IMG/VR virus record: IMGVR_UViG_3300002460_000038
Span: 1 to 55,813 of that record
DNA length: 55,813 nucleotides
Source of the DNA: a virus
Reading direction: 5' to 3' (one strand)
Shown: in pieces, positions 1,994 through 27,577 of the stretch
How positions within the stretch are numbered: the first letter of the stretch is position 1
Layout: each line of letters starts with the position of its first letter
Position numbers and translations under genes: made by a program
Notes under the pieces: model-generated
The model's database searches: none
Told to the model about the DNA's origin: nothing
What the model saw: only the letters and a program-made list of their open reading frames with translations

Positions 1994-2503
1994 AGCCGGC
2001 GCCGAAGTACCTCACGGTTAAAGAAGCCGAGCAGCACCTGCGAGCCACCTACGGGCGCTCGTTCAAGCGGCATCTGCCTGCCGTGCGTCGGATGCCGGTG
2101 CGGGTGCAGTTGCGCACGTTGCGACTCGCCATCGGGAATCCCTCCCAGATCGAAGTCGAGCAGCTCGCACAGTTGCCGCGCGGTAAGTACTGGCGCATCG
2201 AGAACGGGTACGACGAACCCACACCAGAGGAACGCACGCGACTGGCCTTTGTGTTTCGCGTGAAACTTGCCGGCTTTGACAGTGACAAGGAACTCGGTGT
2301 GGCGATTGGCGACGAGGGACGGCCGATCAGCGCGTCGCAGCTCTCCGCGTGGTTCAGCCGCCAACCGAGGCACCGAGAACCCGCAGACCTGGCGCTTCGA
2401 ACAGCATCCCCGTTTAGGGCCAGCGCTCTTGCTCGCGCGGGCGGAAGTCACCGACGGAGCCGTCGTCAGGGTCTCGATCGAGTTGAACAGGAGGGTCGGA
2501 TGA
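1990..2503 (+). CDS. XRE-like DNA-binding protein, apparent frameshift near 2353-2366
   Basis: The frame from ATG 1990 has an N-terminal half related to the preceding regulator (KYWRIENGYDEPTPEERTRL). It loses protein-like character after about residue 122 (SAWFSRQ). From there another frame carries a natural-looking tail (ANRGTENPQTWRFEQHP onward) and stops at TGA 2501-2503, overlapping the ATG of the next gene as ATGA. The two halves join cleanly with one indel in the segment at 2353-2366. Without the shift the first frame stays open to 2721 and fuses to the KTSC gene. Sequencing error, decay or programmed shifting are all possible. Confidence 0.5.
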
Positions 2504-2721
2504 ATCGCATGGCCGTGGATTCGTCTCTGATCGCGAGCGCCGGACACGACGGGGACGCGATGGAAGTGGAACTCGCGAGCGGGCAGGTCTATCGGTACGA
2601 GGGGATCTCGCGCGAGCAGTACGACGCCTTTATGGCCTCGGACTCGAAGGGGAAGTACTTCAACGGCGTCATCAAGGGCGCGTGCGCGTCGTGCACGCGC
2701 GTGGATCGGCACGAGCACTAA
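2500..2721 (+). CDS. KTSC domain protein
   Basis: 73 residues from ATG 2500, preceded by GGAGGG-like bases. The core VDSSLIASAGHDGDAMEVEL, then SGQVYRYEGI and SKGKYFNGVIKG matches the small KTSC domain found in many phage and bacterial proteins. The function of the family is not established. The same frame extends upstream into the XRE-like gene, so a fusion of the two is the alternative reading. Confidence 0.7.
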   Translation: MNRMAVDSSLIASAGHDGDAMEVELASGQVYRYEGISREQYDAFMASDSKGKYFNGVIKGACASCTRVDRHEH

Positions 2722-2728
2722 CAACGAA

Positions 2729-2769
2729 ACGCCCGTAACGGCTGCCTGGAAGCTCCCCGTCACGGGCGT
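2729..2769. promoter_or_regulatory. Stem-loop before the 2783 gene
   Basis: ACGCCCGT at 2729-2736 pairs perfectly with ACGGGCGT at 2762-2769. There is no T-run after it, so it is more likely an RNA-stability or translation element than a terminator. It lies just upstream of the ribosome binding site of the 2783 gene. Confidence 0.4.
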
Positions 2770-2782
2770 CATGGAGAAAACG

Positions 2783-4054
2783 ATGAGCAGTGTAGCACCC
2801 AATCTCATGAACGACAACGACGACCTGACCGACGTCATCGTCGACCCGAACCAACTGACGGCGAAGATTGCCGCCTGGAAAGCCGCGGGCTTCCACGTGC
2901 TCTCTCCGGCCATCAAGTTCACCAGCTTCGCCGTCAACTTCGGCGCGAACGTGGGCGCCCTGGTCATCAGCACCGACCCGGCGATGGGCGAGTGCTACTA
3001 CGACAAGGCGGCCATGAAGGAGGACGAGCGGGCGATTGCGCGCGTCGGCCTCGACAAATTCACGCAGCTCGCCGGCATCTCGTGGTTGCCGTCCAGCCGG
3101 CGCACCGACCCGCGCACGGTAATGAACCTGTGGGAATACCACGTCGATGGCGCCTTCGTCAGCTACGACGGCACGCCGCAAATCATCACCGGGACGTCGG
3201 AAGTCGACCTCCGTGACGGCGGCGCGCAGATTGGCGGTTGGACGCCGCAAGGCTGGAAGGACCTCCTGGCGGCGAACGTGGGGAAGCCCAAGGACCAATG
3301 CACCTGGAATATCGGCGGCTGGAGTGAGCAGCGCGTGATGAATGCGCGCCGGTTCGGGCTGCGGCTGGCGGAAACGAAGGCGAAGAACGCCGCCATTCGC
3401 ACGCTCGGCCTGAAGGGCAAGTACACGCTCGACGAGCTGGCGCGGCCGTTCATCATCCTGCGCTTCCAGTACATCCCGGACATGACCGACGCGAGCGTGC
3501 GGCACATGGTCGCCGCCGCGCACATGCGCGGTATCTCGGCGCTCTACGCCGGCACGGCACACCGGGAGCTGCCGGAACACACAGGCGGGGCCGACATCAT
3601 CGACATTTCGTCGGTGCGCCGGCCAGATCCGGTGCCGGTGTCCGTGGCGCCGCCGCCGGTGGCCGAGACACCACGGGCTGATAGTGCAGCGGCCAGCATC
3701 CAGGTCTCCAAAACCGAAGACGCCGGTTCGAGTCCGGCTCAGCCCGCCACGCCACCCGCCGCGCCCGACGTCTCCCCAGCGAACGTCATCAAGGAAGTGT
3801 CGCGGGAGACGAAGGCGTACGGGGCGAAGCACGCGAAGGCGGGCCAGACGTTTGTCAAGTTCCACATCATCGACGGGAACGGCGTCGACCACGTGACCAT
3901 CCGGGAGAACGTCGGTACGAAGGCGGAGAAGTACTGGCGCGAGCGCATTCCGGTGCGTATTAAGTCCGCGCTGAACGACTTCCGCGAGCAGGAGTTGTCG
4001 GCGATTGACCCGTTGCAGACGGCGCCCGTGGCGGCGGCGGAGATCCGGCTGTGA
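2783..4054 (+). CDS. Unidentified conserved-looking phage protein of the recombination cluster
   Basis: 423 residues from ATG 2783, chosen over ATG 2771 because GGAG at 2773-2776 sits six bases upstream. The first 270 residues look folded, with a segment (AETKAKNAAIRTLGLKGKYT) like those of ssDNA-binding or annealing proteins. Residues of about 285-340 are proline/alanine-rich, and a short C-terminal domain follows. It overlaps the SbcD gene by four bases. Its position before SbcD/SbcC is where phages often encode a single-strand annealing protein. That role is inference from context; no catalytic motif is visible. Confidence 0.5.
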   Translation: MSSVAPNLMNDNDDLTDVIVDPNQLTAKIAAWKAAGFHVLSPAIKFTSFAVNFGANVGALVISTDPAMGECYYDKAAMKEDERAIARVGLDKFTQLAGISWLPSSRRTDPRTVMNLWEYHVDGAFVSYDGTPQIITGTSEVDLRDGGAQIGGWTPQGWKDLLAANVGKPKDQCTWNIGGWSEQRVMNARRFGLRLAETKAKNAAIRTLGLKGKYTLDELARPFIILRFQYIPDMTDASVRHMVAAAHMRGISALYAGTAHRELPEHTGGADIIDISSVRRPDPVPVSVAPPPVAETPRADSAAASIQVSKTEDAGSSPAQPATPPAAPDVSPANVIKEVSRETKAYGAKHAKAGQTFVKFHIIDGNGVDHVTIRENVGTKAEKYWRERIPVRIKSALNDFREQELSAIDPLQTAPVAAAEIRL

Positions 4055-5570: not shown

Positions 5571-8020
5571 AGCTCGAACGCCTCGAGATCAAGGGTTTCA
5601 TGAACTTCCGCGAGCCGGCGACGCTGGACCTGCGGGACATCCCGTCCGGGCTCGTCTCCATCACCGGCGTCAACGGCCACGGCAAGACGCGGTTGCTCGA
5701 CGCCGGCCCTGGCGCGCTCTACGGGGAGTTCTTCTCCCGCGACGGCAACATGGCCGAGTACGCCACGGAGCCGGACGCCTACATCGACGCGCTGTACCAC
5801 GTCGAAGGCCGCGGGTCCTACCGGGCCCGCATGAACGTGGATGGCGTGAAGGGCAACCGGGACGCCGTCCTCGAGCTGGTGCAGCCGGACGGCTCGAAGG
5901 TGCCCTTGAACGACGGCAAGGTCAGCACGTTCAAGGAGTCGGTCGGCCAGATCTTCCCGCCCAAGGAATTGCTGTTGGCGTCGGCGTTCGCCGCGCAGAA
6001 CCGGGCGGGCTCGTTCGTGTCCCTCGACCGCAGCAAGCGGAAGGACCTGTTCGGGAAGCTGCTCGGGCTGGAGCACTACGCTCGGATGGCGGCCACCGCC
6101 AAGGCGTGCGCCGACATCGTCGAGAGCACCCGGGCCCGGCTCCAGGAGCGTCGTGATTTCCTCCTGCGGGAAACGTCGCCAGCCATCTTCGACGAGCAGC
6201 AGGCTCGGGCGAACGTGCTGCAGGCGGAGCTCGGTAACGCGGGACTGGCGCGCGCCGACCTCCAGACGCAGATTGAAGGGCTGACCGCGGAACGCGCCGA
6301 CCTCACCGAGCAGGCGATGGCGCACCTGAAGTCGCTGGAGCGCATCGAGACCCTGAAGGCGACGATCGCCACGCGTACCGCCGAGCGGGAGCAGGTCGAC
6401 GTCGACCGGCGCGCCGCGCAGGACGGCGCCGTGGTGGAACGGACGCGCGCGGACATTCAGCGCACGACCACGCTGGGCAGCCTGGACGAGCGGGAGCAGG
6501 CCGAGCGTGACCGGCACGCGGCCACGGTGGCAGACCTCCGCGAGCGGATTGCCGGGAATCAGACCCTCAACAGCAAGGCGGACGAGATTCGGGCAGCGTG
6601 CATCGCGAAGGCGGACGCCACGGCGCAGCGCGAGGGGTTGCAGGAGAAAGAGCGGCGTCTCCGCGAGGACCTCGACCAGTTCCGGGACCAGGTCCGCGGC
6701 CGGGAAGGGAAGCTGCGCGAGCTGGCCACCGTCGAGCGGGACCTGACGGCCGCGCGTGAGAGCGCCCGGACGCTGACCGTTGTGAAGTTCGGCGAGCAGT
6801 GCGGCGGTGAGAATCCGTGCCAGTTCGTCGCCAAGGCGGCGGCCGACAAGGGCTCGATTCCTGACCTCGAAGTGCAGGTGCAGCACGTCGCCACGTTGCG
6901 CGAAGGCGTGGCGCTCTGGACCGACAAGGTCACCGCGGCGCAGACCGACATCAAAGCCGTCCTCATCGCCATCGCGCAGGTCGACGCCAGGCTGAAGGGG
7001 CTCGAACCGCTGGCGAAATACGAGCCGGAGCTGGCCGCCACGGAAGCGCGCATCACCGAATACCAGCGCGTGCTCGACAACGAGGATGCGGCGCTCGTCG
7101 GTCGCCTCGCGGACATCGAGGCGCAGCGGAAGGCCGTCGACCTCCAGCACGGTGAGACCTTTGCCGACATCGAACGCCGCTTCGAGGCCCGGTGTGCGGA
7201 GCTGGCGGTCCGGCGCGAGACGCTGCTGGAGGCGTCGTCGCAGGCGCACCAGGCGCTCACCCTGGCCGAGCAGGAGGCCGACACCCTGGCGCCGGCAGCG
7301 CTCCGGCTGAAGGTGCTCGACGAGGAACTGGGGTCCGCGCGTGTCGCCTGGACCACGAATGAAGCCACGCTGGCCGGGCTCGCGGTCCGCAAGGACCAGT
7401 TGACCCGTGAACGGACCGCGCTGGCGGCGAAGCGAGCGGAACTGCAGTCGGTCCTGGACCGGCTGCGCCAGGTCGAGGACCGGTTGCTCTGCTGGAACGT
7501 GTTCGTCAAAGCGTTCGGCCGGGACGGGCTGCCGACGCTGGAGATCGCGGCGGCCGGGCCGACCGTCTCGAACCTGACCAACGACCTGCTCACGGCGTGC
7601 TTCGGCCCGCGGTTCTCCGTGGAGCTCGTCACCCAGGAAGAGCGCGCGGACAAGAAGGGGCTCAAGGAGTGCTTCGAGCTTCGCATTTTTGACAATGAGC
7701 ACGGCGGCGACAGCCGCGATCTGGCGGACCTCTCCGGCGGCGAGAGAGTAATTGTCGACGAGGCGCTACGGGCCGCGCTGGCCTTGTATGTGAACAGCCG
7801 CAACGTCGCCCCAATCCGCACGTGTTGGAGAGACGAAACCTTGGGGGCGCTCGATCCTGACAACGCGACGCGTTATGTCGCGATGCTCCGGCGTCTCCTC
7901 GACCTCGGCGGCTTTCACCACATTCTTTACGTTTCCCACAACCTCGACGCAGCGGCGCTGGCCGACACGCAAATCGTCGTGCGCGACGGCCAGCCCGAAG
8001 TCCTTCGGAGGGTCGCGTGA
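5567..8020 (+). CDS. sbcC: SbcC/Rad50-like SMC-family ATPase
   Basis: 817 residues from ATG 5567. Walker A is GVNGHGKT (34-41). A long heptad-rich coiled coil runs from about 200 to 650. Near its middle (about 411-418) the sequence CGGENPC may be a variant zinc hook in place of CxxC. The C-terminal lobe has the ABC signature LSGGER (about 722), a Walker B ending in RDETLGALD, and the H-loop VSHN. It is the ATPase partner of the upstream SbcD. Stop and next start overlap (GTGA). Confidence 0.85.
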   Translation: MKLERLEIKGFMNFREPATLDLRDIPSGLVSITGVNGHGKTRLLDAGPGALYGEFFSRDGNMAEYATEPDAYIDALYHVEGRGSYRARMNVDGVKGNRDAVLELVQPDGSKVPLNDGKVSTFKESVGQIFPPKELLLASAFAAQNRAGSFVSLDRSKRKDLFGKLLGLEHYARMAATAKACADIVESTRARLQERRDFLLRETSPAIFDEQQARANVLQAELGNAGLARADLQTQIEGLTAERADLTEQAMAHLKSLERIETLKATIATRTAEREQVDVDRRAAQDGAVVERTRADIQRTTTLGSLDEREQAERDRHAATVADLRERIAGNQTLNSKADEIRAACIAKADATAQREGLQEKERRLREDLDQFRDQVRGREGKLRELATVERDLTAARESARTLTVVKFGEQCGGENPCQFVAKAAADKGSIPDLEVQVQHVATLREGVALWTDKVTAAQTDIKAVLIAIAQVDARLKGLEPLAKYEPELAATEARITEYQRVLDNEDAALVGRLADIEAQRKAVDLQHGETFADIERRFEARCAELAVRRETLLEASSQAHQALTLAEQEADTLAPAALRLKVLDEELGSARVAWTTNEATLAGLAVRKDQLTRERTALAAKRAELQSVLDRLRQVEDRLLCWNVFVKAFGRDGLPTLEIAAAGPTVSNLTNDLLTACFGPRFSVELVTQEERADKKGLKECFELRIFDNEHGGDSRDLADLSGGERVIVDEALRAALALYVNSRNVAPIRTCWRDETLGALDPDNATRYVAMLRRLLDLGGFHHILYVSHNLDAAALADTQIVVRDGQPEVLRRVA

Positions 8021-8553
8021 TCAGCCCGACAGGCTTGTGCTGCTGCGGCTGTGGTCAGTCGACGAGGATTGCCGAGTGCGCGAATTCTCGCACTGGTGAT
8101 GTCAAGGGAGAGCCGCGACGTTTCCTGAAGGGGCATCAGACGCGCCGCCCGAGTCCACCTGGAAGGCGGTTGTCCACTGGCGGGTACGTGTTGCTCTTCG
8201 CGCCTGAGCATCCACGCGCTACGACCAACGGTTCTGTCTTTGAGCACATCGTCGTCGCTGAAAAGGCGCTCGGGCGTCTGTTACCACTTGGCGCTGTCGT
8301 GCATCACGTGAACGACGAGAAGGCGGAGAACCGCAACGACAACCTTGTGATTTTGGAAAACAACTCGGAGCACAAGTCCCTCCACCGGCGAAGGCGCGTG
8401 CTGCGTGCCGGCGGGAACCCCTGGACGCAGTGGCTGTGCTCAACGTGCAAGCTCCCGAAGGATTTGACCGAGTTTTATCGCCGGAAGAACGGCTGGGTGA
8501 ACTCGGAGTGCAAGACCTGCGAGCGAAAGCGACGCGGGACGGCGGCGGCGTGA
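8017..8553 (+). CDS. HNH endonuclease (free-standing, homing type)
   Basis: 178 residues. The HNH core is EHIVVAEKALGRLLP, then VVHHVNDEKAENRNDNLVIL and NNSEHKSLHRR, with the HH pair, the central asparagine and the last histidine in place. CCCGCGQ at the N-terminus and CSTCK with CKTC at the C-terminus form two cysteine clusters, probably zinc fingers. It is clearly related to the HNH gene at 27170, including the shared tail segment AGGNPWTQ. It overlaps sbcC by four bases and lies just before the tRNA-like gene. Confidence 0.8.
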   Translation: MISPTGLCCCGCGQSTRIAECANSRTGDVKGEPRRFLKGHQTRRPSPPGRRLSTGGYVLLFAPEHPRATTNGSVFEHIVVAEKALGRLLPLGAVVHHVNDEKAENRNDNLVILENNSEHKSLHRRRRVLRAGGNPWTQWLCSTCKLPKDLTEFYRRKNGWVNSECKTCERKRRGTAAA

Positions 8554-20611: not shown

Positions 20612-20976
20612 TCGACGCTCGCGCGGCGTCGACCGCCCCTGATCGACCGCAGGCCCCAGATGCTGGCTTCCGGTCGGTCGGGGCGCTCATTCAGGACATC
20701 ACCGCTGCCCACGGGCGGATGTCTGCGAACAATCCCCATCGCGCCATCCTCGAGCAGTGCGGCATCGCGCTCGGCGAACTCGCCGTGCAGCTCCACAACG
20801 AGCGGTCGAAGCACCGCGCTGCGGTCAAGGCGGTCCTGGACGCGGTCGTCGACATGCGGAATGTCGTTGCAGAACATCGGAAGTGGGCAGACGGTCTGAA
20901 CTTGCCGCAAGAGTCGTTGCTGTCGGCGATTGACGGGTGGGAAGAGGCGCTGTCCGGCATCGAGGGAGTCGTGTGA
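20608..20976 (+). CDS. Hypothetical helical protein
   Basis: 122 residues from GTG 20608. Mostly helical with segments such as AVKAVLDAVVDMRNVVAEHR and SLLSAIDGWEEAL. No motif recognised. Coupled to both neighbours by overlapping stop and start codons. Confidence 0.6.
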   Translation: MIDARAASTAPDRPQAPDAGFRSVGALIQDITAAHGRMSANNPHRAILEQCGIALGELAVQLHNERSKHRAAVKAVLDAVVDMRNVVAEHRKWADGLNLPQESLLSAIDGWEEALSGIEGVV

Positions 20977-21194
20977 TGCCGAAGGTGCTCTGTCAGGCGG
21001 AGACGGTCAACGGCTGCTTCCGTGTCGTCACCGGGAGCCCGAAGGCGGGCAGCGCGCCCGTCGTCGAGCGGCGCTCGACACCGGACGCGATGGGGATCGA
21101 CGTCTGGCAGCCGGTGACGGCCGACTGTGCGCTGCACGCGCTCGAGGCCGTGGTCGGGTATTTCGCCGCGGCCGACGCGGGAGGCGACGCGTGA
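20976..21194 (+). CDS. Small hypothetical protein
   Basis: 72 residues from ATG 20976 (TGATG coupling). Segments CFRVVTGSPKAGS and DCALHALEAVVGYFAA are seen. No family recognised. It ends in the GTGA that starts the terminase large subunit gene. Confidence 0.5.
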   Translation: MPKVLCQAETVNGCFRVVTGSPKAGSAPVVERRSTPDAMGIDVWQPVTADCALHALEAVVGYFAAADAGGDA

Positions 21195-24100
21195 ATGTTG
21201 TCCTCCTGGTCCTGCTGATGGCGACCACCGCAGTCCCTTCGCAGCGACGGTTGGGCGCGGCCGGCGTCGTCGAGACCCAGACGATTGATTGGGCCTCGCC
21301 CGTTCAGCACGCCGCGTTCAAGTACGGCCCGTTCCCGCAGCTCGCGTCCGGGGGCTTCGGCTGCGTGGCCGGTGATACGCGGATCTTCGATGCGGAGACG
21401 GCACGGGAGTGGACGTTTGCGCAACTCGCCGCCACTGGTCGTCAGCCGATCGTGTTGGCGTGGACGGGCGACGGGTTCGCGTGGGTGCGCGCGAGTGCAC
21501 CTGTTCGGAAGGGCGTGGCGCGGCTCTATCGGATTCGAACGCGGTCTGGGAAGTCCATCGTGGTTACTTCCGCCCACCGGTTTTTGACCGACTCAGGTTG
21601 GTCAAGTGCTGGCGATATGACCCGTTCCGATGCCCGCGCCGGACGCCTTCGAGTGTCCGACGTCGACCCTCTGGCGTCCACTCTGGGCATTTCCCTTTCA
21701 GTGTCTCAGCGAGATGTTGACTGTTTCCTGAATACAGGCGCAGGTTCTCAATCGCGTTGTGCTGGTGATCGTCGTCAACGTGATGGACGACCTCGGTCGG
21801 CTCGAGAAATCGTCCGATGGCCGCTTCCATCACCAGTCGGTGCTCGCGCACATAGCCTGCGGCGTTTGCGTGCGGATGTTGCGGACATTGCACCAGCACG
21901 TAGCCGTCCTTATCGATTGTCCGGCCGCCCTTCCAGTCTCGATGCTTCGCTCCAGGCTGCGCGCCTCGGTTCTGCACCGGGAAGCCATGACGATGACAGA
22001 AGCGGCGCACTTGCTCAGGCTCGACTGGGAGCCGGAGGCGCTCCTGAATCTCTGGACACGTCAAGCCTTGTTCTGCGAGATGGCGGATTTGGACAAGGAA
22101 CGGCACTAGCTGGCCACGCTCTTTCATGCCTTGATTATATCGTGGAAGTGGTGGATTTGGGTGAGGGTGAATTCTATGACGTGCACGTGCCCGTCTGGAA
22201 TAACTACCTCGCGCACGGCTTCATCAATCACAACTCCGGCAAGACCTACGAAGGCTGCCTGAAGGGCCTCTGGCTCTCGGATGTGTTCCCGCGTAACCGC
22301 GGGCTCATCTTCCGGTCCGTCGCCAAGGACCTCCGCGCGACGACGATGGCCACGTTCAAGAAAATCTGCCCGCCGTCGGCGTACAGCGCGCCGGATGCCG
22401 GATGGAACCGCATGGAGGGCCTGACCCGGTTGAACAACGGATCAGAGATTCTCTGGCTCGGGCTCGACAATCCGGAGCTCGAAGACATCCTGAAGGGGCT
22501 CGAAATCAACTGGTTCCTCGGCGACCAGGCGGAAGACACTGCCGAGGAAATCTTCGACACGCTCATGGGGCGCCTTGGCCGGTGGGACCAGGCGGAGGTG
22601 CCGCAATGGCTGCTCGATGAGGAAGATGCCGCCGGTCGCCCGTGGCGCTGGCGGCATCCTGTCTCCGGCAAGCCGACGCCGCCGACCTACCCGATGCTGA
22701 CGTGCAACCCGGACACCGAGCTGCACTGGCTGTATCGGCGCTTCCATCCCGAAAGCCCTGAGCATTACGACCGCCGCCTGCCGGACCTTGACCTGACGAC
22801 GGGCCAACCGACCGGCAAGCTCGTGAGCTATCACGACCTCGGGTACCGGCTGTTTCACATGCCGTCGCTCGAGAACAAGTTCCTGCCGGCGCAGAACCGC
22901 GCGCATCTGCTTGCGCAGGATGATGCGTTCCGCCGACGGTACGTCGAGGGCATCTGGGGCCTCCCGGAAGGCGCTATCCACGTCGTCGACAAGCGGTCGC
23001 TCATCACCTTGGAGGACCAGGCGCAGGCCGACGCGTTTCTCACGTTGCTGCGGGAGACGTGCACGCTGCACCGGTTCCTTGACCACGGCGACTCCGCGCC
23101 GACCTGCTGCCTGTGGCTGGCGATCGACCGCCAGGGCAACATGTTCTGGTTCCGCGAGTACTACGTTCCGAATCAGCTCATCTCGTATCACCGCCGCGAG
23201 ATCACGACCTTGTCGCAGGGTGAGCGGTACACCTTCAATCAGGCCGACCCGAGCATCTTCAACAAGACGATGCAGAAGCACGGCGGTCGCTGGTCGGTGG
23301 CCGACGAGTACGAGGACAAGCGCGAGAGCCCGGCTGAGACCGCCATCTTCTGGGAGCCAGCCGACAACAACGAGCTCGGCACCCGCAACCGCATCAACGA
23401 ATACCTCCGCATCGATCCGGAGCGCATCCACCCCTACACGAAGGAGCGCGGCGCGCCGCGGATGTTCTTCATCGTGCGGACGGACGCGTACCCGCAGGGC
23501 GTCATGCACGCGCTTCGTGAGACCAGGGCGCAGCGGCGCCAGAAGCTCGGGACCGAGATGGGGCGCCCGGTGTTCAGCGACGAGCGCGACGAGAACATTG
23601 CCGACCACGGGTATGACTGCCTCGCTGGCGACACGACTGTGCTCACGCGCGACGGGTGGCAGCCGATTGCGTCGCTGGTTGGAACCGAGAGCGACATCTG
23701 GACGCTGGCAGGGTGGCAGCCGTATACGGACTGCCGCCGTTACCGGAGTGGGAGCGCAATGGTTCGCGTTGAGACGCGCGAAGGCGCGTTCCGCTGCACG
23801 CCGGATCATTTGATTCTGACAAGCGATGGCTGGAAACGTGCCGACGCGCTCACGAGTCGTGATACCATAGCGCAATGCAACCAGTGGTCATATCTCGGAC
23901 CATTCAATCCTTCAAGGGACTCAGGTACTACCTCTGCGGCTTCTATTTTCAGCGCGATGGGAAGCGGCTTCATCGCGCAGTGTGGGAGCATCATCACGGC
24001 CCTGTGCCAGTTGGCCACCATGTCCATCACGTCGATGGCGACAGGGCCAATAATGGGGATGGCAACCTCGTGCTTCTCGCCGAATTCACGCACCTCAGCG

Positions 24101-24589
24101 GACACTCGAAACGATCAAAGCATGAGCGCGCCGTTGCCGCAATGCAGGCCGCTGCTAAGCGATGGCACGGCAGCGACGCCGGGAAGCAGTGGCACCGCGA
24201 ACACGTTGCCGACTCCCTCGGTGCGACGTGGATCCGCGACGTGGAGCGGGAATGCAGCGAGTGCGGCCGAACATATATGGCGGCTCGTGGCGCCGCGTCT
24301 CGAAGTTACGTCTGCAGCAACGCTTGCAAGAGCGTTCGGTTTCGGCGGCTCAACCCAGGTTACGACCGTCGTTTTAAGCGAACCCGCCGATAGCTACTGC
24401 CTGAGTGTTCCAGCCCCGCACGCGTTCGCGATTGCGGGTGGCTTCCTTGTCCATAACTGCCTCCGCTACGGCACGGCCAGCCGGGCGCCAGTTGCGCGGC
24501 AGCCACCGCCGAATGCCGACCCGCGGACGTTTGCCGGCCAGTCGCGGCTGTTGAAGCAGGCGTCGCGCCAAGTGCGGGGGGCGCGATGA
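21191..24589 (+). CDS. terL: Terminase large subunit with two inteins
   Basis: 1132-residue precursor from GTG 21191 (ATG 21218 is an alternative). Removing the inteins at 21362-22234 and 23618-24457 gives a 561-residue protein of normal TerL size. The spliced P-loop would read GGFG-SGKT, followed by a Walker B-like INWFLGDQAED. The nuclease half has FLDHGDSAP and the last acidic motif DHGYD-CLRYG, split by intein 2. It is the ATP-driven packaging motor and genome nuclease. Both inteins sit at essential sites, so the enzyme cannot work until they are spliced out. Confidence 0.9.
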   Translation: MNVVLLVLLMATTAVPSQRRLGAAGVVETQTIDWASPVQHAAFKYGPFPQLASGGFGCVAGDTRIFDAETAREWTFAQLAATGRQPIVLAWTGDGFAWVRASAPVRKGVARLYRIRTRSGKSIVVTSAHRFLTDSGWSSAGDMTRSDARAGRLRVSDVDPLASTLGISLSVSQRDVDCFLNTGAGSQSRCAGDRRQRDGRPRSAREIVRWPLPSPVGARAHSLRRLRADVADIAPARSRPYRLSGRPSSLDASLQAARLGSAPGSHDDDRSGALAQARLGAGGAPESLDTSSLVLRDGGFGQGTALAGHALSCLDYIVEVVDLGEGEFYDVHVPVWNNYLAHGFINHNSGKTYEGCLKGLWLSDVFPRNRGLIFRSVAKDLRATTMATFKKICPPSAYSAPDAGWNRMEGLTRLNNGSEILWLGLDNPELEDILKGLEINWFLGDQAEDTAEEIFDTLMGRLGRWDQAEVPQWLLDEEDAAGRPWRWRHPVSGKPTPPTYPMLTCNPDTELHWLYRRFHPESPEHYDRRLPDLDLTTGQPTGKLVSYHDLGYRLFHMPSLENKFLPAQNRAHLLAQDDAFRRRYVEGIWGLPEGAIHVVDKRSLITLEDQAQADAFLTLLRETCTLHRFLDHGDSAPTCCLWLAIDRQGNMFWFREYYVPNQLISYHRREITTLSQGERYTFNQADPSIFNKTMQKHGGRWSVADEYEDKRESPAETAIFWEPADNNELGTRNRINEYLRIDPERIHPYTKERGAPRMFFIVRTDAYPQGVMHALRETRAQRRQKLGTEMGRPVFSDERDENIADHGYDCLAGDTTVLTRDGWQPIASLVGTESDIWTLAGWQPYTDCRRYRSGSAMVRVETREGAFRCTPDHLILTSDGWKRADALTSRDTIAQCNQWSYLGPFNPSRDSGTTSAASIFSAMGSGFIAQCGSIITALCQLATMSITSMATGPIMGMATSCFSPNSRTSADTRNDQSMSAPLPQCRPLLSDGTAATPGSSGTANTLPTPSVRRGSATWSGNAASAAEHIWRLVAPRLEVTSAATLARAFGFGGSTQVTTVVLSEPADSYCLSVPAPHAFAIAGGFLVHNCLRYGTASRAPVARQPPPNADPRTFAGQSRLLKQASRQVRGAR
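21362..22234 (+). other. Intein 1, in the TerL Walker A loop
   Basis: 291 codons. Block A is CVAGDTRIFD with Cys1; block B is VVTSAHRFLTDSG with the usual T-x-x-H; block F is YIVEVVDLGEGEFYDVHVP; block G is NYLAHGFINHN followed by Ser+1. It lies between GGFG and SGKT of the P-loop. About 170 residues between B and F have no intein-like or LAGLIDADG sequence. That stretch is instead the complement of an HNH gene (21564-22127). The splicing residues look intact. Confidence 0.85.
21564..22127 (-). CDS. HNH endonuclease encoded antisense within intein 1
   Basis: 187 residues, minus strand, wholly inside intein 1. A helical N-terminus (LAEQGLTCPEIQERLRL, HTH-like) precedes the HNH core: REHRLVMEAAIGRF, EVVHHVDDDHQHNAIENLRL and NSQHL, with HH, N and H in place. 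On the minus strand TATAAT (22139 down to 22134) lies six bases before its ATG, so a nearly leaderless transcript is possible. Its frame looks far more protein-like than the sense frame across the same DNA. It is probably the homing nuclease of intein 1. Confidence 0.8.
   Translation of the reverse strand: MKERGQLVPFLVQIRHLAEQGLTCPEIQERLRLPVEPEQVRRFCHRHGFPVQNRGAQPGAKHRDWKGGRTIDKDGYVLVQCPQHPHANAAGYVREHRLVMEAAIGRFLEPTEVVHHVDDDHQHNAIENLRLYSGNSQHLAETLKGKCPEWTPEGRRRTLEGVRRGHRNGSYRQHLTNLSRSKTGGRK
23618..24457 (+). other. Intein 2, in the TerL nuclease motif
   Basis: 280 codons. Block A is CLAGDTTVLTRDGWQPIASL, block B is RCTPDHLILTSDGW, the C-terminal block is DSYCLSVPAPHAFAIAGGF and the end is LVHN followed by Cys+1. 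It splits DHGYD from CLRYG. Cys1, His-Asn at the end and Cys+1 are the canonical splicing residues. The stretch between B and F translates to a Ser/Ala/Thr/Met-rich string without known motifs, because the DNA there encodes an HNH protein in another frame. Confidence 0.85.
23875..24393 (+). CDS. HNH endonuclease encoded out of frame within intein 2
   Basis: 172 residues from ATG 23875, on the terminase strand but shifted by two bases. It has an HNH core: RLHRAVWEHHHGPVPVGHHV, then HHVDGDRANNGDGNLVLL and EFTHLSGHS. After a helical stretch comes a zinc-finger pair, CSECGRTYMAARG and CSNACKSVRFR. It ends inside the intein C-terminal block. I see no good ribosome binding site or promoter, so how it is expressed is unclear. 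It is probably the homing nuclease of intein 2. Confidence 0.8.
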   Translation: MQPVVISRTIQSFKGLRYYLCGFYFQRDGKRLHRAVWEHHHGPVPVGHHVHHVDGDRANNGDGNLVLLAEFTHLSGHSKRSKHERAVAAMQAAAKRWHGSDAGKQWHREHVADSLGATWIRDVERECSECGRTYMAARGAASRSYVCSNACKSVRFRRLNPGYDRRFKRTRR

Positions 24590-24765
24590 AGACATGGACT
24601 GTCCTCGTCGGTCCCGCAGCGATTCGCATCGGGAAGTATTGGCGTCCTGTGCTGTCAGGAGACGTGTGGCTTCCGCGGCGGTTCATGACACCAGAAGCGG
24701 CCCTGCGTTATGCGGCGCAGCAGGAAGCAAAACTCGCGCGGCCGGAGACGACGACACATGGCTAA
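24586..24765 (+). CDS. Small hypothetical protein between terL and portal
   Basis: 59 residues from ATG 24586 (ATGA overlap with terL). Segments WTVLVGPAAIRIGKYWRPVL and FMTPEAALRYAAQQE look folded. The end overlaps the portal gene start by eight bases. No family recognised. Confidence 0.55.
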   Translation: MKTWTVLVGPAAIRIGKYWRPVLSGDVWLPRRFMTPEAALRYAAQQEAKLARPETTTHG

Positions 24766-26737: not shown

Positions 26738-26952
26738 TGGCTGCGCTGGTGAGTCCGGCGCCCGGAGACGAGACCGTGTTCAAGGGCGGCGCGCTGTCGT
26801 CGGCGTTCTTCACCGGTCAGATTCAGGCGTGGCGCCGCGAGCCGGCGACGACGGCCGGCTTTGAGTGGGTGTGTTTGGAATTCGAGGGGGGCGGCTCCGT
26901 GCAGATTCTCACGGGCAATCCGCTGGTGTGGATCGAGCCCGAACGGCACTGA
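26737..26952 (+). CDS. Small hypothetical protein
   Basis: 71 residues from ATG 26737 (TGATG with the portal stop). Beta-rich with segments FFTGQIQAWRREP and WVCLEFEGGGSVQI. No family recognised; it belongs to the head operon by position. Confidence 0.55.
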   Translation: MAALVSPAPGDETVFKGGALSSAFFTGQIQAWRREPATTAGFEWVCLEFEGGGSVQILTGNPLVWIEPERH

Positions 26953-26954
26953 CG

Positions 26955-27167
26955 ATGGCCTACCACAAGATTTCGCACCCGACGCGCGAAATGGCAGACG
27001 CCCACCGACGAGGCATGTTGGCAATCACGACGGAGCATCCGAAACGTCAGGCGGCCCTCGAAACGTACTGGTGCACGGTCTGCGACGCGTTTCATGTCGG
27101 CCACCGACGGTCACCGATCGCGCTGGCGCGCGTCCGGGCGCGCGGCGCACGGCTGAAGAGGCACTGA
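26955..27167 (+). CDS. Small zinc-ribbon-like hypothetical protein
   Basis: 70 residues from ATG 26955. Residues MAYHKISHPTREMADAHRRG lead into YWCTVCDAFHVGHRR, a CxxC-x-FHVGH signature common in small phage proteins that probably bind zinc. Followed directly by the HNH gene. Confidence 0.55.
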   Translation: MAYHKISHPTREMADAHRRGMLAITTEHPKRQAALETYWCTVCDAFHVGHRRSPIALARVRARGARLKRH

Positions 27168-27169
27168 AT

Positions 27170-27577
27170 ATGGGAGCAAAACGCCAATACGTGCAGATTG
27201 TCGAGCGCGTACTCGGGCGCCCTTTACCACCTGGCGCCATCGTCCATCACGTGGACCAGGACCGAGAGAACGAGCGGAACGACAACTTGTGCGTCCTTCA
27301 AGATTCAGCCGAACACGTCAGGCTGCATCGCAGGCTCAGAATTCTGCAGGCCGGTGGGAATCCTTGGACGCAGCAGATTTGCTGCACGTGCCAGCAGGTG
27401 AAAGACATCGACCAGTTCCCGCCATCCCGCCGAACGAGTAGCGGCGAATGTCATCCGTGCCTTGCTCGTCGAAGAACGCCTTCACCCGAAACGTACGACC
27501 AACGCCGAGAGCGGAATCGCCGCGCTGCCCAATCGCGCTGGCGAAAAGAACGGGAGGTGTGCCACGCCTCTTTATGA
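27170..27577 (+). CDS. HNH endonuclease (free-standing, homing type)
   Basis: 135 residues from ATG 27170. The core VQIVERVLGRPLPPGA, IVHHVDQDRENERNDNL and SAEHVRLHRR is a close relative of the HNH protein at 8017, including AGGNPWTQ and a CCTCQ/CHPC zinc pair. The end overlaps the start region of a FmdB-type gene, which has apparently lost its ATG. This fits insertion at that gene's 5' end. Confidence 0.75.
   Translation: MGAKRQYVQIVERVLGRPLPPGAIVHHVDQDRENERNDNLCVLQDSAEHVRLHRRLRILQAGGNPWTQQICCTCQQVKDIDQFPPSRRTSSGECHPCLARRRTPSPETYDQRRERNRRAAQSRWRKEREVCHASL

Follow-up and report, generated by a model that had tools for sequence, protein, structure and literature searches.

In textbook mobile inteins the nuclease is an in-frame domain. 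Fractured genes are a second arrangement, reportedly described by Dassa et al. in 2009, in which split inteins are accompanied by a free-standing endonuclease encoded between the halves. A third is seen in the ShiLan domain, where an insertion in a phage methylase encodes an HNH endonuclease out of frame and has no splicing domain (Arsenault et al. 2025, PMC11855218). Here we analyse a 55.8-kb virus record, IMGVR_UViG_3300002460_000038 (positions 1-55,813, the whole stretch of DNA that was analysed and hereafter the window), in which the gene for the terminase large subunit (TerL) contains two inteins. The second of these, intein 2, is probably a mobile cis-splicing mini-intein overprinted with an HNH homing endonuclease that has its own start, and across the overlap the intein frame probably serves as stop-free, disordered filler. 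In the literature that we searched, which did not include bioRxiv preprints, no paper reports TerL inteins with overprinted HNH genes; bioRxiv preprint 2025.01.02.630785, which is cited in PMC11855218 and deals with actinobacteriophage inteins of 'non-canonical architecture', may anticipate part of the arrangement.

TerL lies on the plus strand at 21218–24589, with the ATG at 21218 chosen as the likely start within a stop-free frame that begins at 20930. This frame is unbroken from 20930 to 24589, and the window is therefore not a fractured gene with a split intein. The middle extein matches the terminase large subunit family phrog_979 (E value 2.2e-7), and relatives 53–80% identical to this TerL are present in viral contigs. 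Intein 2 occupies 280 codons (23618–24457, plus strand) and interrupts the C-terminal nuclease motif of TerL (DHGYD^C...HN^CLRY). Its ends (CLAGDT...FLVHN^C) carry intact splicing residues, including C1, the T61 and H64 of a TxxH motif, H279, N280 and the Cys+1, and C1, T61, H64 and N280 are invariant across 24 homologues. The NCBIfam N-terminal intein model TIGR01445 matches both inteins of the gene above its cut-off (E value 2.6e-5 for intein 2), and the Pfam family Intein_splicing matches intein 2 with an E value of 2e-6 and a score under Pfam's own cut-off. No Rfam model, group I introns included, matched positions 20900–24700 at the gathering threshold, and a group I intron in the TerL region was rejected on this basis.

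AlphaFold modelling of intein 2 from an alignment of homologues predicts a two-part HINT fold in which residues 1–88 and 242–280 mostly have a predicted local distance difference test score (pLDDT) of about 95, and Foldseek relates this model to the solved mini- and split inteins NrdJ-1, DnaB, DnaE and GyrA (E values 1e-5 to 1e-4). The N-terminal splicing half (residues 1–88, 23618–23881, plus strand) is modelled with a pLDDT of about 96 up to residue 80 and 82 at residues 81–90, and the C-terminal half (residues 242–280, 24341–24457, plus strand) with values of 81–98. Between them, residues 91–241 (23888–24340, plus strand) fall below 50 nearly throughout. The Ser/Ala/Thr/Met string encoded here is, as modelled, a disordered linker, and the predicted fold of the same DNA sits in a different frame. 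Shifted by two bases, in the −1 frame relative to TerL, the plus strand encodes a predicted HNH homing endonuclease of 172 amino acids plus a stop codon (23875–24393, stop at 24391–24393), and the first ~50 bases of the C-terminal splicing half are dual coding, also specifying the C terminus of this protein. The open reading frame (ORF) matches PF13392 (HNH_3, E value 5.5e-12) and, over residues 1–158, phrog_15471 (E value 6.3e-30). Residues H51, H52, N60, H73 and H77 and the zinc ligands C127, C130, C147 and C151 are conserved, the four cysteines being invariant among relatives, and AlphaFold predicts a well-ordered protein (mean pLDDT 90.2). I-HmuI is its sole solved relative by profile comparison (E value 3e-4) and also its top, weak, fold match. 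An earlier note, made from this DNA alone, had described a 280-codon intein with canonical ends and a low-information middle and, in a shifted frame, a 172-residue HNH protein with a zinc-finger tail, and both descriptions stand. With its HNH gene out of frame (−1), intein 2 is not a canonical homing intein, and with a complete splicing domain it is not an insertion of the ShiLan type.

We scanned a phage collection, viral contigs and genome contigs, classifying loci in six frames with profiles of the N-intein, the C-intein and the HNH. The scans recovered 189 places where a TerL intein overlaps a same-strand HNH, grouped into 149 non-redundant clusters (below 90% identity). The intein frame is open with the HNH at −1 in 116 clusters and at +1 in 11; 20 clusters are fractured, one is mixed open and fractured and one is fractured with mixed offsets. 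In none of the 149 is the HNH in frame with an open intein. More than 100 distinct phage sequences thus share the arrangement, which is therefore an established, largely unannotated design and not an oddity. The design recurs at the −1 offset, with the insertion a few codons away, in Rhodobacteraceae phage LS06-2018-MD07 and Acinetobacter phage Highwayman, both of which are annotated with a long TerL only. Among 63 N-exteins scanned, 47 match Terminase_6N and 14 match Terminase_3, indicating that the hosts of these inteins are terminases. A scan of genome contigs with the HNH of locus L010 returned zero loci, and a profile of closer relatives returned 59. The concern that a nested query retrieves only nested copies was rejected, as sampling by the N-intein alone agrees: 80 loci gathered in this way include 63 open with an out-of-frame HNH, 10 fractured with an HNH, 4 mini-inteins and 1 large intein without an HNH. 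This TerL intein therefore usually has its nuclease out of frame. Relatives with an in-frame nuclease, which the earlier note had named as grounds for refutation, were not found, as none of these 80 loci has an in-frame HNH.

To define which frame is selected, we permuted synonymous codons within each HNH gene of 66 non-redundant open loci. The intein frame contains 0 stops where 243 are expected, the third frame contains 1040, and only 5.7 of the 66 loci would be expected to be open by chance. Free-standing HNH relatives beside TerL contain 1–12 stops in the −1 frame and 2–37 in the +1 frame. In pairs of loci 60–75% identical in the HNH, the HNH frame is the more conserved one (65% identity versus 39% for the intein frame), and its third codon positions vary most. 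Together, stop avoidance and frame conservation argue that the HNH is maintained and that the main demand on the intein frame is the absence of stops; dual coding is significant because of these family statistics and not because of the window alone.

The start of the HNH is an ATG in 64 of 66 loci and is preceded by a stop in the HNH frame at a median distance of 5 codons (4 in the window). This stop lies within 10 codons in 47 of the 66 loci and within 4 codons in 32, the window included. HNH starts pair more strongly with the anti-Shine–Dalgarno sequence than the remaining ATGs of these loci do (mean −5.3 versus −3.3, p = 5e-5). As judged from sequence, these features favour separate initiation of the HNH over frameshifting. 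A mimic of the homing site upstream of the HNH start, akin to an I-TevI operator, was rejected: across the loci, upstream regions scored against their own empty sites barely exceed background (6.66 versus 6.44, p = 0.04), and high scores are not in excess. DNA resembling D-x-L-R-Y lies upstream in some loci, and in some a similar DALRY or DTLRY stretch belongs to a conserved block of the intein itself.

We propose that the first ~90 and last ~39 codons of intein 2 would form a HINT splicing domain in the TerL frame, and that the DNA between these halves would express an independently initiated HNH in the −1 frame. Read in the TerL frame, the same DNA would supply only a stop-free, disordered linker that is removed with the intein at splicing. 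The HNH presumably cleaves intein-less TerL genes at the conserved D-H-x-x-D-x-x-R-Y codons, repair of the cut gene would copy the whole intein across, and in this way the HNH probably copies the intein into other phages. The proposal builds on the two coding frames, the intact catalytic residues, the constraint across the family and the presence of empty sites in close relatives. The TerL of locus L257 (80% identical) has an uninterrupted C-terminal site, PDHGYDCVRYG, in which the +1 Cys is already present, and the site is likewise uninterrupted in L255, L256 and L258–L261. Over the stretches compared, none of these seven TerL relatives (53–80% identical) has an HNH or intein match, consistent with recent gain.

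Several observations weigh against this proposal. The window taken alone is neutral, as the intein frame of this GC-rich sequence is open in 50% of synonymous permutations (P = 0.50), and the ribosome-binding site of its HNH gene is weak (duplex energy −6.4). Within the overlap, identity in the intein frame lies slightly above the synonymous null (0.328 versus 0.276), an excess that could reflect a small additional constraint or common ancestry. That the HNH is translated, and that splicing, cleavage and homing take place, are all steps that we infer, and in other phages relatives of the HNH stand free beside TerL, leaving room for a role in packaging. HK97 gp74 is an HNH protein reported to work with terminase in packaging, and the HNH of intein 2 could similarly be a packaging accessory acting with the terminase, overprinted in the intein by chance, and not a homing enzyme. 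Free-standing members directly adjoin TerL in several phages, and a 2025 paper lists HNH proteins among the components of packaging machines (PMC12613952). We consider such a role unlikely, as the seven TerL relatives without an HNH or intein match on the stretches compared indicate that the HNH is dispensable for that TerL, I-HmuI, the sole solved relative, is a homing enzyme, and insertions into conserved codons at several positions of TerL are in keeping with homing.

The neutral frame statistics of the window, together with the lack of a second zinc-finger pair found in longer relatives, would also suit a decaying HNH relic beneath an intein frame kept open as a by-product of high GC content. 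This is very improbable given that the protein is confidently modelled and retains every conserved HNH and zinc residue, and that the short form recurs in other intact members (172–177 amino acids, for example L068, L072 and L107). We give equally little credence to production of the HNH by programmed −1 ribosomal frameshifting from the TerL and intein frame: the −1 offset does predominate (116 clusters versus 11 at +1), but the stops that lie within four codons upstream in 32 loci, the window among them, leave almost no room for a slip, nearly all starts are ATG and a +1-offset clade exists. Published out-of-frame HNH insertions without a splicing domain (PMC11855218) raise the further idea that the insert is unspliced, a ShiLan-like open-frame endonuclease insertion tolerated by its host protein. 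For intein 2 this is scarcely credible: its HINT domain is complete, from C1 and TxxH to the penultimate His, the Asn and Cys+1, its insertion point falls within a conserved nuclease motif of TerL, and no Rfam model matches in the TerL region.

A tree of HNH proteins places open, fractured and free-standing forms in interleaved positions, requiring 20 changes by parsimony, several of which are forced by the best-supported branches alone. The nested HNH of Highwayman, for example, adjoins the free-standing HNH of BP10, and the +1-offset clade needs one or two origins. The invasion of mini-inteins by HNH genes put forward in the earlier note fits this interleaving and is plausible, with its direction resting on unrooted data. 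Its further suggestion that HNH genes persisted only where the splicing frame remained open is too strong as phrased, as about 20 of the 149 clusters have a broken frame with a separate C-intein ORF, that is, split inteins; HNH invasion thus has a second viable outcome, in which the frame is broken. In fractured loci such as L001, L043 and L070, TerL and its intein are encoded in separately translated parts, and the C-intein ORFs have plausible starts. Among the near-identical TerL inteins of L291–L295, the frame is broken between the halves in L293 alone, which reflects either a fracture of very recent origin or a mistake in assembly.

Intein 1 of the same TerL (291 codons, 21362–22234, plus strand) lies in the Walker A P-loop (GGFG^C...HN^SGKT) and matches Intein_splicing (E value 1.9e-9) and TIGR01445 (E value 6.2e-6). 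The antisense HNH that the earlier note had placed in it is real: a 187-amino-acid ORF on the minus strand (21564–22127) matches PF13392 (E value 4e-8) and phrog_10730 (E value 2.6e-31). In 79 of 81 loci of this HNH family, the window included, the gene runs antisense within a long open frame at a constant antisense phase, and the other two loci are cut by contig ends. Across 55 non-redundant antisense loci, 0 stops are observed where 401 are expected, and the HNH of intein 1 is thus a member of a class parallel to the same-strand overprints. Pectobacterium phage Sabo and Pseudoalteromonas phage PHS3 carry an antisense HNH at the P-loop. The GenBank record of PHS3 (L254, KX912252.1) gives TerL as 1116–2291 and the antisense HNH as 2384–3094, with the TerL frame really open to 3242; TerL is annotated as truncated because of the overprinted nuclease in the P-loop intein. 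The earlier note's picture of two inteins in one TerL with two packing solutions is supported, and the pair recurs in a second phage, L176, with an antisense HNH in the P-loop intein and a same-strand out-of-frame HNH in the C-terminal intein. In L036, L061 and L065 a P-loop intein with in-frame LAGLIDADG-like motifs accompanies a second intein with an out-of-frame HNH, so that both nuclease styles coexist within one gene. L093 (2558–4648) has an intein at the C-terminal TerL site with an antisense HNH and a broken intein frame.

Further loci came to light in the scans. In an uncultured Clostridium metagenome-assembled genome (MAG), L162 (1331–4732) is one terminase-like ORF with two inteins at sites resembling Walker B and nuclease motif I; each intein has its own same-strand out-of-frame HNH, and the separate exteins have no Pfam match. 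An overprinted intein is also present in L148 (2618–3583), on a contig titled Candidatus Nitrosotalea, a bin of an ammonia-oxidising archaeon; the design may cross domains, or the contig may be a binning error. Tandem HNH-family stretches with no intein match occur in L141, L143, L146, L147, L149, L154 and L168, from Selenomonadaceae and related rumen MAGs. Within the window itself, another HNH_3 ORF of the phrog_15471 family lies downstream of TerL (26861–27577, plus strand) and is apparently free-standing, and a further HNH-like ORF is found at ~7861–8550 (plus strand).

In the overprinted inteins, splicing and mobility are uncoupled as proteins and locked together as DNA, and a frameshift that breaks the splicing frame would damage an essential phage gene or force a split intein. 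The design may be one path towards split inteins, themselves important tools in biotechnology. The loci also provide a large natural set of overlapping gene pairs for studies of origin and constraint, in which free-standing and split relatives can serve as controls. They matter for annotation too, as GenBank entries give either a long TerL without a nuclease or a nuclease with a truncated TerL. On balance we think that these loci form an unrecognised class of overprinted inteins, found in an archaeal bin and in phages from several bacterial phyla, that encode splicing and mobility in different frames (−1, +1 or antisense). In this view the splicing frame is held open under selection, and the arrangement is an evolutionary neighbour of, and perhaps a route to, fractured genes with split inteins.

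As in canonical large inteins, the nuclease of intein 2 lies between the HINT halves and has a presumed role in mobility, but in the window it is outside the precursor polypeptide. I-HmuI, the only solved relative by profile and the top, weak, fold match, is carried by a phage group I RNA intron, whereas in the window a protein intein is the carrier and intron models give no match. Fractured genes have a close counterpart in Lactobacillus phage CL2 and in L040, L043 and L070, where a separate nuclease belonging to this HNH family sits between the splicing halves. The window and most of its relatives differ in that the intein frame is unbroken, implying splicing in cis, and the nuclease is overprinted and not intergenic. 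ShiLan domains share with intein 2 a shifted-frame HNH, an insertion open in the host frame, zinc fingers beside the HNH and a sporadic spread suggestive of homing. They lack a splicing domain and are thought to be retained in the protein, whereas intein 2 is a complete intein within TerL, and the solution adopted in TerL recurs in more than 100 sequences and on both strands.

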